From Vogesella indigofera (GTDB lineage Bacteria; Pseudomonadota; Gammaproteobacteria; Burkholderiales; Chromobacteriaceae), in NCBI RefSeq assembly GCF_003633895.1, contig NZ_RBID01000017.1, forward strand, positions 36,507 to 100,506: 64,000 bases of DNA. Direction: 5' to 3'. Positions 6,666 to 63,913 of this stretch are shown piece after piece. The notes beneath the pieces were generated by a model. The model ran no database searches, was not told where the DNA came from, and saw only the letters and a list, made by a program, of their open reading frames with translations. Position numbers and translations under genes: made by a program. Positions within the stretch are counted from its first letter, which is position 1. Every line of letters starts with the position of its first letter.

Positions 6666-7282
6666 ATCGGCATCCGCCTGAACTTTTCAGCGCCGGGCGT
6701 GACCAAGCCGTAGCAAGCGTCGTCCTGACGTTTTCTCCTCTGATTGTTTCGCATTGACTTGACCGCGCCGCGCAAGCTGGCGCGGCTTTTTTTTGTTCAG
6801 TTTTCAGTGAAACCGAACTTTGGATGTTCGTTTTTGATTACAGCAAGGTGACAAACCGAACGCTGATGGCGGGGCGGGGGCGCATCACTTCCATGCCATT
6901 GGCGTTAACGATGCGCGTGCGACAGCGACGACGGCCGGCGAGCTGCGAGCGGAACAAGTGTTTGATTTTGCTGGAGGAGAAAAACGGGCAAAAAAATTGC
7001 GCGGGGTTTTACGCCCGCGCCAAGTCTACAAAGGAGAAATAGAGGAGAAACTATCAAGAAGCAATTGCTGCATCCCAACGAGTACGGATTATCCGGATCG
7101 TGTTTGTCGCTGTCAATGTATACAATCTGCAATAACGCAAAAAATATAACATTTTGTCGCGCTTTGAACACATCGCGTGTTGGAAAGTGAAAATCTAGCG
7201 CTTGCTTGCTGCGCTTGATGCGGCGCATCACGCCAAGCTGTGCCACAATATCGTCTTTGCCAGATTTGTCCGGTTGCCTGTG
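6666..7282. other. 617-base region without a convincing gene
   Basis: Apart from the terminator at 6763-6794, I see no credible gene on either strand. Base composition from about 6940 is clearly more A+T-rich than its surroundings, with purine-rich stretches (AAAGGAGAAATAGAGGAGAAA, 7039-7059) and small palindromes (AGCAATTGCT, ATCCGGAT). TACAAT at 7121-7126 could be a -10 box for the next gene. A small RNA gene cannot be excluded. Confidence 0.5.
6763..6794 (+). terminator. Intrinsic terminator downstream of lysR
   Basis: CCGCGCC (6763-6769) pairs with GGCGCGG (6779-6785) across a 9-base loop and is followed by eight T. It lies about 100 bases past the LysR stop. Confidence 0.75.
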
Positions 7283-59311: not shown

Positions 59312-60073
59312 ATGACCCCATCCGATATCCGTGCCGCCGCCATCGCCCTCGCGGCCCGCCGCCTCAGCGGCACTCAGGGCCCGCTGCTGGCCGACGCCCA
59401 GGCCCCGCAGACGCCGGACGACGCGCTGGCGATCCAGCAGGCTGTCTCCGGCCTGCTCAACGACGCCATCGGCGGCTGGAAGTGCGGCCTGCCGGACAAC
59501 GACAAGATCGTCGCCGCGCCGATCTACGCGACGACTATCCACACCGCCGCGCCGTGCCCGGTGTGGCTGCGCGACGGTGCGGTGCGCGTCGAGCCGGAGC
59601 TGGCCTTCGTCTTCGACGGCGGCCTGCCGCTGCGCGCCGAGCCCTACACCGCGGCCGAGATCCGCGCCGCCATCACCCGCGTGCATCTGGCGCTGGAGCT
59701 GATCGACAGCCGCTACCAGCCGCTACCAAAGCCGCCGTTCCTGCAGTCGCTGGCCGACGGTCTGGTCAACCAGGGCCTGCTGCTCGGGCCGCAGGTCGAG
59801 CGCGACGCCGCCTTTGCGGCCAACGTACTGGGGCTGGTGCTGAATCAGGGCGAGCGCGAGGAAACACTGGCCGGCGTGCACCCGGCCGGCGATCCGCTGG
59901 CGCCGCTGTACTGGCTGCAGGGCTTTCTCGCTGAACGCGGCGAGGCGATCCTGCCGGGGCAGGTGGTGATCACCGGTTCCTATGCCGGCGTGCTGACGTT
60001 GGCGCCGGACAGCGAGGTGACCTTGCGCTATGGTGAGCTGGGTCAGCTAAGCGCCTGTTTTAGCGCGCGATAA
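59312..60073 (+). CDS. 2-keto-4-pentenoate hydratase / oxaloacetate decarboxylase-like FAH-family enzyme
   Basis: The 253-residue protein matches the hydratase/decarboxylase branch of the fumarylacetoacetate hydrolase superfamily. Evidence: GGWKCGLPDNDKIVAAPIYA early on, VEPELAFVFDGGLP with the metal-binding E-x-E-like pair near residue 90, HLALELIDSRYQPL near 126-139 and GQVVITGSYAGVLTLAPDSE near the end. Relatives hydrate 2-hydroxypentadienoates in aromatic meta-cleavage pathways, but no other pathway gene is nearby. The start at 59312 gives a typical N-terminus. The dispersed word is at 59815-59824. Confidence 0.85.
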   Translation: MTPSDIRAAAIALAARRLSGTQGPLLADAQAPQTPDDALAIQQAVSGLLNDAIGGWKCGLPDNDKIVAAPIYATTIHTAAPCPVWLRDGAVRVEPELAFVFDGGLPLRAEPYTAAEIRAAITRVHLALELIDSRYQPLPKPPFLQSLADGLVNQGLLLGPQVERDAAFAANVLGLVLNQGEREETLAGVHPAGDPLAPLYWLQGFLAERGEAILPGQVVITGSYAGVLTLAPDSEVTLRYGELGQLSACFSAR

Positions 60074-60413
60074 GGGCAGATGGCAGCGTGATCGCGTGCC
60101 GGCGGGCGCTGCCAGTGTTTGGCACTGGATACAATATTTAAATTGCTGAAAGTTATATTAAAACTAATATTTGCAATTTTGCGACATAAGGGTAATATGG
60201 TGCATCGCAGCGATTGACACAAACGAATGTATATTGTTCAATTGTGTACAACAACTTGATTAACGCCGATTTGAACACAGCTTGCGGGCGTAAAACAGCT
60301 AAAGCGTGGGGATTGTTTTATCAAACGATTCTCCCAATTTTCGATACCGAAGATTCCACGTGATAAAGCCCGCCAGCGCAAACCCGGCGGGCTTTATTGC
60401 TTCGGAGTCCAGG
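60074..60413 (+). promoter_or_regulatory. A+T-rich, structured leader region upstream of metNIQ
   Basis: This 340-base region is markedly A+T-rich compared with its surroundings. TTGACA (60214-60219) and TTCAAT (60237-60242), 17 bases apart, are the best promoter. The predicted leader of about 165 bases folds into at least two hairpins: 60308-60333 (ATTGTTT/AAACGAT core with G-U pairs below) and a strong 12-bp stem, ATAAAGCCCGCC (60363-60374) with GGCGGGCTTTAT (60386-60397). The second stops 16 bases before metN and lacks a T run. A control element responding to methionine or SAM is possible, but I recognise no known riboswitch. Confidence 0.5.
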
Positions 60414-61151
60414 ATGATTCACCTCAAAAACGTACACAAGCGCTTCCGTCGCCCTGAAGGCGGCTGGTTTGACGCCGTGCGCGACACCACCCTCCATATC
60501 AAGGCGGGCGAGATTTTCGGCCTGATCGGGTTTTCCGGCGCCGGCAAATCCACGCTGCTGCGACTGATCAACCTGCTGGAACGCCCCGACCACGGCAGCG
60601 TCAATGTCGACGGCCGTGACCTGACCGGCCTGTCCGCCGCCGAGCTGCGCCGCGCGCGCCAGAATATCGGCATGGTGTTCCAGCAGTTCAACCTGATGGC
60701 CAACCGCACCGTGGCGGCCAACATTGCCTTTCCGCTGGAGATCGCCGGCTGGAGCCGCGCCGACATCGATGCCCGCGTCGCCGAGTGCCTCGATATCGTC
60801 GGCCTCGCCGACCGTGCCGGCCACTACCCGGCGCAGCTGTCTGGCGGCCAGAAGCAGCGCGTCGGCATCGCCCGCGCACTGGCGCCGCGGCCGCACGTGA
60901 TCCTGGCCGACGAACCGACCTCGGCGCTGGACCCGAAAACCACGCAGTCCATCCTCGATTGCCTGCAGGACATCAACGCCCGTTTCGGCGTTACCGTGGT
61001 GATCGTCACCCACGAAATGCACGTCATCCGCTCCATCTGCCACCGCGCCGCCTTGCTCGATGCCGGTGAAGTGGTCGAGCTGCTGGAAGTCACCGACAAA
61101 CAGGTCGCGGCGCGTTCGGCGCTGGCCAAATCGCTGCTGGAGGTCGCATAA
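60414..61151 (+). CDS. metN: Methionine ABC transporter ATPase MetN (short form)
   Basis: MetN powers uptake of D- and L-methionine. The 245-residue ATPase has Walker A GFSGAGKS (residues 39-46), the Q-loop [12 protein letters not shown], signature LSGGQKQR, Walker [12 protein letters not shown] and the switch histidine in VTHEMHVI. E. coli MetN has about 343 residues with a C-terminal NIL/ACT-like domain that shuts transport when methionine is bound; this protein lacks that domain, as does Neisseria MetN. GGAG precedes the ATG at 60414. metI starts immediately after the stop. Confidence 0.95.
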
Positions 61152-61841
61152 ATGGACGAACAACTGACTCTTGCCCAGGCACTGGCCAATCTGTCCGATC
61201 TGGCACCGGAAATCTGGCAGGCCAGCGCGGAAACCGGGCTGATGCTGGCCATCGGCCTCTCCGTCGCCATCGTGGTCGGCGGCCCGCTCGGCATCCTGCT
61301 GTACCTGACGCAGCCGGGACAGCTGTTCGCCAACCGTGCCGTCAACGGCGTGGTCGGCTGGTTCGTCAACCTGGTGCGCTCCTTCCCGTTCATTATCCTG
61401 ATGGTGTCGCTGGTGCCGCTGACGCGGCTGCTGGTCGGCTCCACCATCGGCCCGATTGCCGCCGCGGTGCCGCTGTCGTTTGCCGCGATCCCGTACTTTG
61501 CGCGGCTGGTGGAGCAGACGCTGCGCGAGATCCCGCGCGGCGTGATCGAGGCGGCAGAGGCGATGGGCGCCAGCCCGGCGCAGATCATCTGGAAAGTGTT
61601 GCTGGGCGAGGCCCGCGCCGGCCTGATCTCCAGCCTCACCATTCTCACCATCAGCTTCCTCAGCTACTCGGCGGTGGCCGGCGTGGTTGGCGGTGGCGGC
61701 ATCGGTGACCTGGCCATCCGTTACGGCTACTACCGCTTCCAGACCGAAGTGATGGTGGCGATGGTGCTGCTGCTGGTGGTGATCGTGCAGATCATCCAGT
61801 TTGCCGGCAACCATCTGGCGGCCCGCCTCGACAAGCGTTAA
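61152..61841 (+). CDS. metI: Methionine ABC transporter permease MetI
   Basis: The 229-residue permease has five helices and the ABC permease EAA loop (EAAEAMGASPAQIIWKVLLG, about residues 133-152) that contacts MetN. It matches E. coli MetI in size (217) and in GLMLAIGLSVAIVVGGPLGI near the N-terminus. It begins directly after the metN stop codon and is followed by metQ after 74 bases. Confidence 0.96.
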   Translation: MDEQLTLAQALANLSDLAPEIWQASAETGLMLAIGLSVAIVVGGPLGILLYLTQPGQLFANRAVNGVVGWFVNLVRSFPFIILMVSLVPLTRLLVGSTIGPIAAAVPLSFAAIPYFARLVEQTLREIPRGVIEAAEAMGASPAQIIWKVLLGEARAGLISSLTILTISFLSYSAVAGVVGGGGIGDLAIRYGYYRFQTEVMVAMVLLLVVIVQIIQFAGNHLAARLDKR

Positions 61842-61915: not shown

Positions 61916-62725
61916 ATGCGCAGACTCGTACTGAAATCCATCGCTGTTGCCGCCATCGGCCTGACCGCTGCGGCCAACGTTTACGCTGCCGACCCGGCGA
62001 AAAAGGAAATCACCATCGGCACCACCGTTGGCGACTTCGGCGACCAGGTGAAGCAGCAGATCAAGCCGCTGCTGGAAAAGCAGGGCTACAGCGTGAAGCT
62101 GGTGGAATTCACCGACTACGTGCGCCCGAACCTGGCACTGCAGGAAGGCTCGCTGGACGTCAACGTGTTCCAGCACAAGCCTTACCTCGACAACTTCGCC
62201 CGTGAAAACAAGCTGCAGCTGAAAGAAGTGTTCCAGGTGCCGACCGCACCGCTGGGCATCTACAGCGGCAAGCTGAAATCGCTGAAGGACGTGAAAGTCG
62301 GCAGTACCCTGGCGGCACCGAACGATCCGTCCAACTTCGCCCGCGCGCTGGTGATGCTGAACGACCTGGGCTGGGTCAAGCTGAAGAAGGGCATCAACCC
62401 GCTGACCGCGTCGGAAAAGGACATCGAAGTCAACGTCAAGAAGATCAAGATCGTACCGCTGGAAGCCGCGCAACTGCCGCGCTCGCGCGCCGATGTTGAC
62501 TTCGCGGTGGTGAACGGCAACTACGCCGTCAGCTCCGGCATCAAGCTGACCGAAGCCGTGTATCAGGAAAAGAGCTACGCCTACGTCAACTGGGGCGTGG
62601 TGCGCGCGGCTGACGCCGCCAAGCCATGGGCCAAGGACGTGATCGCCGCCTACAACTCGCCGGCGTTCCGCGCCTGGGCGAAGCAGAAGTACGCCGGCTA
62701 CAAGTTCCCGGCCAACTGGAAGTAA
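61916..62725 (+). CDS. metQ: Methionine-binding protein MetQ, not lipidated
   Basis: The 269-residue binding protein delivers methionine to MetNI. It has a classical signal peptide (MRRLVLKSIAVAAIGLTAAA, then NVYA) cut before ADPAKKEI. There is no cysteine in it, so no lipobox, unlike the lipoprotein MetQ of E. coli and Neisseria. Family motifs are TIGTTVGDFGDQVKQQIKPL, DVNVFQHKPYLDNF and GIYSGKLKSLKDVK. AAGGAG precedes the ATG. The dispersed word sits in the signal peptide at 61969-61978 (A-A-N-V). Confidence 0.95.
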   Translation: MRRLVLKSIAVAAIGLTAAANVYAADPAKKEITIGTTVGDFGDQVKQQIKPLLEKQGYSVKLVEFTDYVRPNLALQEGSLDVNVFQHKPYLDNFARENKLQLKEVFQVPTAPLGIYSGKLKSLKDVKVGSTLAAPNDPSNFARALVMLNDLGWVKLKKGINPLTASEKDIEVNVKKIKIVPLEAAQLPRSRADVDFAVVNGNYAVSSGIKLTEAVYQEKSYAYVNWGVVRAADAAKPWAKDVIAAYNSPAFRAWAKQKYAGYKFPANWK

Positions 62726-62836: not shown

Positions 62837-63016
62837 TCTGCAGGGAATGCGTGCGCGGTTGGCTTGCTATTGGCCTTGCCGTATTGCCTGCCGGCGAGTG
62901 TCACTAATTTGCGACGATGGCCGCCTGCCTCTCCGGCGCGCGATCGATAATCGTTGTTATGATCTCTGATTGATGTGATTATTTTCATTAAATCAAATTA
63001 TGAAAATAAATATTCA

Positions 63017-63913
63017 ATGATTGAACCTACATTGCATGACTCCCCCTTAATGCAGACGCTGCAACAGGCGTTGTCGTCTCTGTCTCCGGCCTTGCGCAAG
63101 GTTGCGGATTTCTTGCTGCGCCACCCGCTGCTGGCGGCGACGCATTCCATTGAGGAGCTGGCGCAGGCAACCGGTGTTTCTGCGGCAGCGGTCAACCGGC
63201 TGGCCAATAGCCTCGGTTATCAGGGGTTTGGCGGTCTCAAGGCGGAGTTGACCGCGGCTTTGCAAGAAGCCGTGTCGCCGGTAAGCAAACTGCGTCAACA
63301 GATCGGCATGCAGGCGGATGACCGGGTTTCCTTGTCTTCGCTGCTGTCTGCGACAGCATCCAATCTGGCATTTACTGCCGATCGCAGTGGCGCCTTGCAG
63401 TTTGAGCTGGCGGTAGCGCTGCTCGCCGCGGCGCGGCGGGTGTTCTGTCTTGGCTTTGGCAATAGTGCCTATCTTGCCGGACTGGCTGCGGCCAACCTGG
63501 CGCCTTTTTGCGATGCCCAGGCGATCAGCCTGGAAGGCGGTAATGAAAATGCCGCTTATCGCTTGGCGACAATCCGGCCAGAGGATGTACTGCTGGCGAT
63601 CAGCTTGCCACGCTATTCCCGGGATACGGTGCAGCTGGCGCGTTTTGCCGTCGATCGCGGGGCGACGCTGCTGGTGATCACCGACTCGCCGGCCTCGCCG
63701 CTGGCGGCGCTGAGTTCGCACGTGCTGTATGCGGTTGCCGACCATCCCGTACTGGCCGCGTCAGGTACTGCCGCACTGGCCCTGATCGAGTCGCTGGTGT
63801 CCGCGGTGATGGTGCAGAACAAGGAGGCGGTGCGTCTCAGTGCCGAGCTGTCGGAAAGCATGCTGCAATACCTGTACTGGAATGATTCTGCCCAACCGCC
63901 GAAACGCGGTTGA
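63017..63913 (+). CDS. MurR/RpiR family transcriptional regulator
   Basis: The 298-residue regulator has an N-terminal RpiR helix-turn-helix (about 1-77: SLSPALRKVADFLLRHPLLA, IEELAQATGVSAAAVNRLAN) and a SIS sugar-phosphate-binding domain (about 125-255: RVFCLGFGNSAYLAGLAAAN, DVLLAISLPRYSRDTVQLAR). Members control use of sugars, sugar phosphates or amino sugars. The ATG at 63017 is used; it is preceded by a markedly A+T-rich promoter region (62960-63016). Its targets are probably beyond the right end of the window. Confidence 0.9.
   Translation: MIEPTLHDSPLMQTLQQALSSLSPALRKVADFLLRHPLLAATHSIEELAQATGVSAAAVNRLANSLGYQGFGGLKAELTAALQEAVSPVSKLRQQIGMQADDRVSLSSLLSATASNLAFTADRSGALQFELAVALLAAARRVFCLGFGNSAYLAGLAAANLAPFCDAQAISLEGGNENAAYRLATIRPEDVLLAISLPRYSRDTVQLARFAVDRGATLLVITDSPASPLAALSSHVLYAVADHPVLAASGTAALALIESLVSAVMVQNKEAVRLSAELSESMLQYLYWNDSAQPPKRG

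Follow-up and report, generated by a model that had tools for sequence, protein, structure and literature searches.

In a Vogesella genome of 3.6 Mb, the leader upstream of metNIQ is very probably an OFF riboswitch of the SAM-II class that responds to SAM and has a compound expression platform (probability about 0.85). It lies in the window, by which we mean the whole stretch of 64,000 nucleotides that was analysed, and its features are collected in Table 1. We infer that SAM is the ligand, that the switch is of the OFF type and how control is divided between termination and translation.

Table 1. Features of the metN leader and of the genes behind it, in window positions
Feature	Position	Strand	Detail or basis
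Promoter TTGACA-N17-TTCAAT	60214..60242	+	TTGACA 60214-60219, 17 bases, TTCAAT 60237-60242
SAM-II-type aptamer, whole	60261..60310	+	34 invariant columns among 37 distinct family copies (consensus 49 letters)
P1, ACGCC 60263-60267 with GGCGU 60287-60291	60263..60291	+	Class-wide covariation
GAUUU, equivalent of the third (triplex) strand	60268..60272	+	Invariant in 37 family copies; our own residue mapping on the available part of PMC6061858
P2/P2a pseudoknot	60276..60308	+	Family and class-wide alignments
GCGGGC, P1/P2 strand; alternative partner GCCCGC 60368-60373 (antiterminator outer helix)	60284..60289	+	Pairing probabilities
GCGUGG, tail strand including the P2a GUG; alternative partner CCACGU 60356-60361 (antiterminator inner helix)	60304..60309	+	
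Hairpin P3	60310..60331 (whole span 60308-60335)	+	Core stem GATTGTTT 60311-60318 with AAACGATT 60323-60330
Hairpin P4, AATTTTCG-ATAC-CGAAGATT	60336..60355	+	Most of the anti-Shine-Dalgarno strand lies in its 3' arm
Anti-Shine-Dalgarno GAUUCC	60352..60357	+	Partner GGAGUC 60404-60409 in the predicted OFF fold
Terminator-like 12-bp stem, then interrupted U tract	60363..60397	+	ATAAAGCCCGCC 60363-60374 with GGCGGGCTTTAT 60386-60397
metN Shine-Dalgarno region GGAGUC	60404..60409	+	Paired in predicted leader folds
metN, short form, 245 aa	60414..61151	+	TIGR02314 MetN 1.5e-86, below curated cut-off
metI	61152..61841	+	NF008049 MetI 3e-59, below curated cut-off
metQ	61916..62725	+	NF008285, TIGR00363 MetQ/NlpA, below curated cut-offs

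The leader and its aptamer

A preliminary description, made from the letters of the window, had called the leader A+T-rich and pointed to a promoter-like TTGACA-N17-TTCAAT. Both observations were borne out. Over 60000-60499 the GC content falls to 0.50, compared with 0.71 and 0.68 for the adjoining 500-base stretches on either side, and the hexamers are present, with transcription presumably starting near 60249. The pattern TTGACN-N17-TTCAAT was found in 40 of the 50 distinct upstream sequences of metN leaders in the family (47 of 57 leaders), and 49 of the 50 contain some hexamer pair scoring at least 8/12, taken as the best of several spacings without a shuffle control. A stricter scan of the metN leader returned neither a promoter nor a terminator at this place, because the second base of the -10 hexamer is not an A and the run of U is broken by other bases (CUUUAUUGCUUC). 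The leader exceeds chance expectation: when the 307-nt stretch was folded, 2 of 100 dinucleotide shuffles folded equally well or better (z -2.39). A DNA search found a leader matching 60200-60420 in 57 of the 61 family genomes; the other four (G034-G037) also have no close metN, with at best a match of 56-59% identity. An inverted repeat, such as GAACA..TGTTC, is visible by eye over the -10 region (60224-60242) in some Vogesella leaders, G050 for example, and is possibly an operator.

The MetN encoded behind the leader aligns to positions 1-241 of the 343-position TIGR02314 model and is therefore a MetN without the C-terminal part. A MetN-like paralogue lies in a longer open frame elsewhere in the same genome (G000:C1:196809). 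The window further holds an open reading frame 3' of metQ (62975-63913), which we take to resemble an RpiR/MurR-type regulator, and the NmsRb sRNA (RF02877) on the minus strand at 6993-7081 (86.4 bits).

All 57 family leaders share one block, close to CGCCGATTTGA(N)CACAGCTTGCGGGCGTAAAACAGCTAAAGCGTGG. The aptamer was overlooked in the preliminary description, as was the third hairpin P4, and it lies 5' of both hairpins reported there. The P1 loop holds GAUUU, CAC (60276-60278) and CUUGC (60281-60285), and the aptamer tail holds GCUAAA (60298-60303) and GUG (60306-60308). In P2, UUGC 60282-60285 pairs with GC 60298-60299 and AA 60301-60302 with U60300 bulged, and in P2a CAC pairs with GUG. The pocket letters GAUUU, CUUGC and GCUAAA are invariant in the 37 distinct family copies, and 14 of these 37 rows cannot form the outermost pair of P1, mostly because U faces U. 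The paper on the SAM-V structure, in the part of its text available, calls the SAM binding of SAM-II virtually identical and describes contacts of the adenine with the bulged U, of the sulfonium with a U:A.U triple and of the amino acid end with the last A of the motif (PMC6061858). By our own mapping of these residues, all SAM-contacting letters of SAM-II/SAM-V appear to be kept in the metN copy. The extra short hairpin that follows P1 in SAM-V is absent from the window copy, which has only AAAACA between P1 and GCUAAA.

The preliminary description could match the leader to no known SAM riboswitch, and at the gathering threshold Rfam returned nothing at the metN leader. At a relaxed threshold, the SAM-II model RF00521 (SAM_alpha), which has a cut-off of 36 bits, matched 60253-60322 with 20.0 bits (E 0.02). 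Against this model another locus of the same genome (L002) scored 34.2 bits, and the cut-off was passed by relatives in 2 of the 61 family genomes (37.3-37.8 bits) and by 3 of 20 scanned loci (36.8-40.4 bits), one of which (L153) is the same place as one of the family-genome matches. In our reading the cut-off is no structural feature and marks how far an alphaproteobacterial model can detect such elements. For a model named R1 we used 37 sequences of the family, 20 from metN and 17 from tandem-1; it gave 74.3 bits to the window copy, itself among the building sequences. Applied to 30 Rfam-positive SAM-II loci outside the class, R1 found 11 at the expected place, five of them at E<0.05, and missed 19 at E<=10; 25 of the 30 fit GATTTG..CTTGC..GCTAAA. 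With relatives of the same core above the Rfam cut-off and reciprocal model matches, SAM-II fits a leader whose own copy is sub-threshold. The earlier suggestion of a new RNA element thus stands as far as a conserved, structured cis-acting RNA is concerned and gives way on newness, the element being assignable to the SAM-II kind. Sub-threshold matches of Thr_leader, STnc310, abiF, ncr1175 and CRISPR-DR28 all overlap the terminator-like stem and were judged compositional, and a fourth R1 match in this genome (C6:180208-180256, 19.4 bits), in coding-like sequence without the aptamer core, was judged a chance match.

Covariation was examined class-wide and within the family. In the class-wide alignment of 76 distinct rows, which leans towards P1 because the rows were aligned by a model carrying P1 and which includes one row that looks like a chance match (L151; 29.4 bits, 80% GC), 99.7% of the P1 cells were paired and four of the five P1 pairs showed two-sided changes, and none of 500 shuffles and no slid control reached any of the five whole-structure measures. 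In the family alignment alone (37 rows) most covariation measures were not above shuffles, since little varies there. P2 is complementary in all 74 rows with letters and its four pairs never vary, so covariation cannot test it. P2a paired class-wide in 67% of cells at the two outer pairs and in 97% at the inner pair.

Alternative folds of the leader

Both hairpins of the preliminary description are present: the first, placed there at 60308-60333, extends slightly further (P3), and the 12-bp stem is perfect and ends 16 bases 5' of the metN ATG at 60414. Computed folds predict two mutually exclusive structures of the metN leader. Downstream pairing of the two aptamer strands was computed for 53 distinct leaders, each ending before the 3' arm of the terminator, with shuffled downstream sequence as a control. 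The mean predicted probability was 0.88 against 0.45 in the control for the GCGGGC strand and 0.90 against 0.48 for the GCGUGG strand (0.88 in the window), the partners being the GCCCGC arm of the terminator and a CCAYG-type sequence; in the window, GCGGGC pairs with the terminator arm itself with a probability of 1.00. One or the other helix fell below or near 0.5 in G040, G041, G045 and G060, and in the last three the predicted fold has no inner helix. In 50 of the 53 leaders P3 and P4, and no other hairpin, lie inside the inner helix, which gives a predicted three-way junction; in these 50 leaders P3 has 46 distinct sequences and P4 has 37. The antiterminator helices take the strands needed by P1, P2 and P2a.

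When the sequence behind the aptamer was folded on its own, the terminator-like stem was nested inside a stem between the anti-Shine-Dalgarno strand and GGAG. At least three of the four Shine-Dalgarno bases were predicted to be paired (p>0.5) in all 53 distinct leaders, with a mean pairing of 0.94 against 0.77 in the control, a modest excess that was seen in 48 of the 53. Across 27 representative leaders the terminator-like inner stem was paired in 95.6% of cells and the whole compound hairpin in 84.7%, the latter with 24 cells of two-sided change against 10.4 expected. The compound hairpin exceeded all 500 shuffles in percentage paired, two-sided-change cells and covariation score but did not exceed them in the other two of the five measures (244/500 and 144/500). 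Slid versions had 7 and 10 pairs with two-sided changes against 6 in the true register. RNAalifold on this alignment returned only the terminator stem and four Shine-Dalgarno pairs, and P3 and P4 were assessed fold by fold because they are out of register in this MAFFT alignment. The covariation analysis proposed in the preliminary description found stems that are conserved and carry compensating changes, so the refuting outcome named there, stems with neither, did not occur.

In the mechanism that we propose, the aptamer would be the first part of the leader to emerge. With SAM bound, P1 and the P2 pseudoknot would sequester GCGGGC and the GUG of GCGUGG and leave the downstream strand GAUUCC-ACGUGAUAAAGCCCGCC free. 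GCCCGCC could then pair with GGCGGGC in the terminator-like stem and GAUUCC with GGAGUC, by which the Shine-Dalgarno would be hidden and metN switched off. When SAM is lacking, the outer helix GCGGGC/GCCCGC and the inner helix GCGUGG/CCACGU would form a three-way junction around P3 and P4. This antiterminator would block the terminator-like stem and likewise the anti-Shine-Dalgarno strand, and metNIQ would be made. The switch would act on transcript elongation and on ribosome access, and since the U tract is weak in this genome, hiding of the Shine-Dalgarno may dominate. In the full window leader the terminator stem forms even in the unconstrained fold, and in the truncated leader P1 has a probability of no more than 0.03 under the nested model. 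Holding the aptamer (-21.1) instead of the antiterminator (-35.6) costs 14.5 kcal/mol in the window, with the energies of the pseudoknot and of SAM excluded. Given this cost, switching would have to be decided co-transcriptionally and would need these energies, to which nested-fold programs are blind.

Reach across genomes, the sister locus and other readings

R1 matched (E<=0.001) 130 of 274 genomes of the class, which we take to be Gammaproteobacteria in the GTDB sense, and 177 of 250 genomes of the order, the two samples overlapping. We examined 69 loci, comprising the 29 best-scoring (L107-L135) and 40 that we picked; these 40 came from the remaining matches listed, with weak ones and second copies among them, and from two Rfam matches in the family. 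The aptamer pattern could be parsed in 61 of them. Downstream of these lies a metZ-cluster protein in 42 cases (one, L107, confirmed by NCBIfam) and a MetN-cluster protein in four, three of which had the MetN model as their best match, below its cut-off, and one of which (L157) was matched only as an ABC ATPase fragment. The remaining parsed loci precede MetE, MetX, MetK, a homocysteine methyltransferase domain or proteins with no methionine link. Judged by position, the aptamer appears to be associated with methionine/SAM genes, metNIQ included. The stretch ahead of the T run in metZ-cluster leaders frequently shows complementarity to GCUAAAGCG of the aptamer, with a mean run of 8.0 against 5.5 in shuffled sequence over 42 loci and only 5-6 in nine of them; in our reading these leaders follow the same switching logic with different letters. 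One genome (G307; L136-L139) holds seven R1 aptamer matches, several in tandem, and among the proteins downstream of them that of L136 matches no Pfam family and that of L138 gives a RelA/SpoT-type match.

The second locus of the Vogesella genome is a tandem (L002:1354-1554, minus strand; G000:C5:133033-133231) that by eye runs from a promoter through aptamer 1, an intrinsic terminator, aptamer 2 and a ribosome site to a small protein. This protein starts with MYDC, is about 95-104 aa long and matches neither a Pfam nor an NCBIfam family above the cut-off; the next gene on this strand encodes a MATE-family efflux protein. Aptamer 2 (L002:1354-1417, minus strand) has a pattern that occurs in 56 of the 61 family genomes, with GAGUU as the third strand in 51 of them and GAUUU, probably the ancestral state, in five. 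By our own mapping on the available part of PMC6061858, the changed U would be the one touching the uridine that reads the adenine of SAM. It is conceivable, and at present rather doubtful, that the GAGUU aptamer 2 is a variant of SAM-II whose ligand is new or whose selectivity has changed, and that it controls this conserved protein of no assigned family; if so, the metN switch belongs to a lineage whose sister aptamer changed its pocket.

Such pocket variants bear on the ligand of the metN copy as well. An aptamer derived from SAM-II that senses SAH, methionine or another sulfur metabolite would agree with the sub-threshold Rfam score of the window copy and with the single-base variants of the lineage (GAGUU in tandem-2, GACUU in L145, GUUUU in L171). 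We consider it improbable, since the SAM-contacting letters of the metN copy are those described for SAM-II/SAM-V and copies across the class stand before metZ, metX, metE and metK, a combination that fits SAM feedback. Less credible still is an ordinary leader without any switch, made up of the terminator of an upstream transcript and chance hairpins. A same-strand gene does end upstream at 60073, and stems of the AAAGCCCGC type are common terminators; the preliminary description had offered a terminated upstream transcript as one explanation. However, a conserved promoter and the aptamer separate that gene from the hairpin, which in predicted folds also pairs with the Shine-Dalgarno of metN itself, and P1 covariation, the antiterminator and the Shine-Dalgarno stem are kept over genera.

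A switch that acts on translation only, the 12-bp stem being no real terminator here, is a narrower form of the SAM-II OFF-switch reading and does not exclude it. We regard this form as a serious possibility at somewhat less than even odds: the interrupted U tract, the negative terminator scan and the predicted pairing of the Shine-Dalgarno in every distinct leader favour it, whereas clean U tracts stand straight after the same stem in several family leaders (e.g. G050, G030) and a T run of at least five follows within 86 nt in 35 of the 42 metZ-cluster copies. The SAM-II OFF riboswitch with a compound platform remains our preferred reading of the metN leader.

Comparison with known systems

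The SAM-II class (RF00521 SAM_alpha) is itself known, and the metN element shares with it P1 and an H-type pseudoknot, the GAUUUG / GCUUGC / GCUAAA core, methionine genes, terminator platforms and, in our reading of the alignments, the separation of P2a from the UU:AA pairs by a 3x3 internal loop. It differs in several respects. P1 of most family copies is (A/U/G)CGCC/GGCG(U/C), whereas most of the Rfam-positive loci fetched have CGUGG(U)/(A)GCCACG; P2a has at most 3 bp here and 5 bp in 60% of SAM-II according to the available part of PMC6061858; the metN copy scores 20 of the 36 bits required; and its target is metNIQ. The metN platform joins a terminator-like stem, Shine-Dalgarno hiding and a three-way-junction antiterminator. 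Barrick and Breaker (2007, PMC2258182) mention, in the part of their text available, that SAM-II occurs together with terminators in both alpha- and betaproteobacteria.

Leyn et al. (2014, PMC4239095), in the sections at hand, report a betaproteobacterial metXZ RNA element with a pseudoknot, an alternative fold and then a terminator, which they call novel; in the same sections SAM_alpha is placed only in Rhizobiales and Rhodobacterales, and their search for a betaproteobacterial metNIQ regulator failed, none being reported. The metXZ element lies 5' of metX/metZ, where R1 also finds the present aptamer. Khoo et al. (2012, PMC3521395) validated, in the part of the paper seen, a Burkholderia sRNA candidate 5' of methionine genes and suggested that it is cis-acting. 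The corresponding model, Bp2_287 (RF02424), is built on the other strand and matches the window on the minus strand with 30.1 bits, below its cut-off of 70. The present lineage is probably the metXZ element and the Bp287 sRNA already in print, and we infer the identity with metXZ from the available portion of that paper. No link to SAM-II is made in the parts of the two papers available, and our results suggest that both are SAM-II riboswitches. SAM-II, alphaproteobacterial by its Rfam description, would then reach 130 of the 274 sampled genomes of the class.

A search of open-licence PMC text found no SAM-II on metN in Chromobacteriaceae in the titles and abstract openings among the matches listed. 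As far as these matches show, three things are new: metNIQ as the target in Chromobacteriaceae, the connection of SAM-II with metXZ and Bp287, and the compound nature of the platform. The element is thus a testable candidate for the methionine regulator of metNIQ in Chromobacteriaceae, the betaproteobacterial one being missing according to the available part of Leyn et al. 2014.

Among systems with more than one aptamer, the excerpted text of PMC9481103 describes tandem SAM-II/SAM-V and 44 double SAM-II arrangements, some with mixed platforms. Their order, with aptamer 1 and a terminator followed by aptamer 2 near the ribosome site, is that of the second locus of the Vogesella genome; in contrast, metN has a single aptamer and aptamer 2 of the second locus carries GAGUU. 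The SAM-II of S. meliloti metA acts, in the available part of PMC9373788, through access to the Shine-Dalgarno with a terminator downstream, and that of metZ is predicted to terminate with SAM. The metA terminator is not predicted to be switch-controlled, whereas the metN leader nests a terminator-like stem within Shine-Dalgarno hiding. This nested hairpin, together with the conserved three-way-junction antiterminator, offers a clean system in which one aptamer might control two steps.
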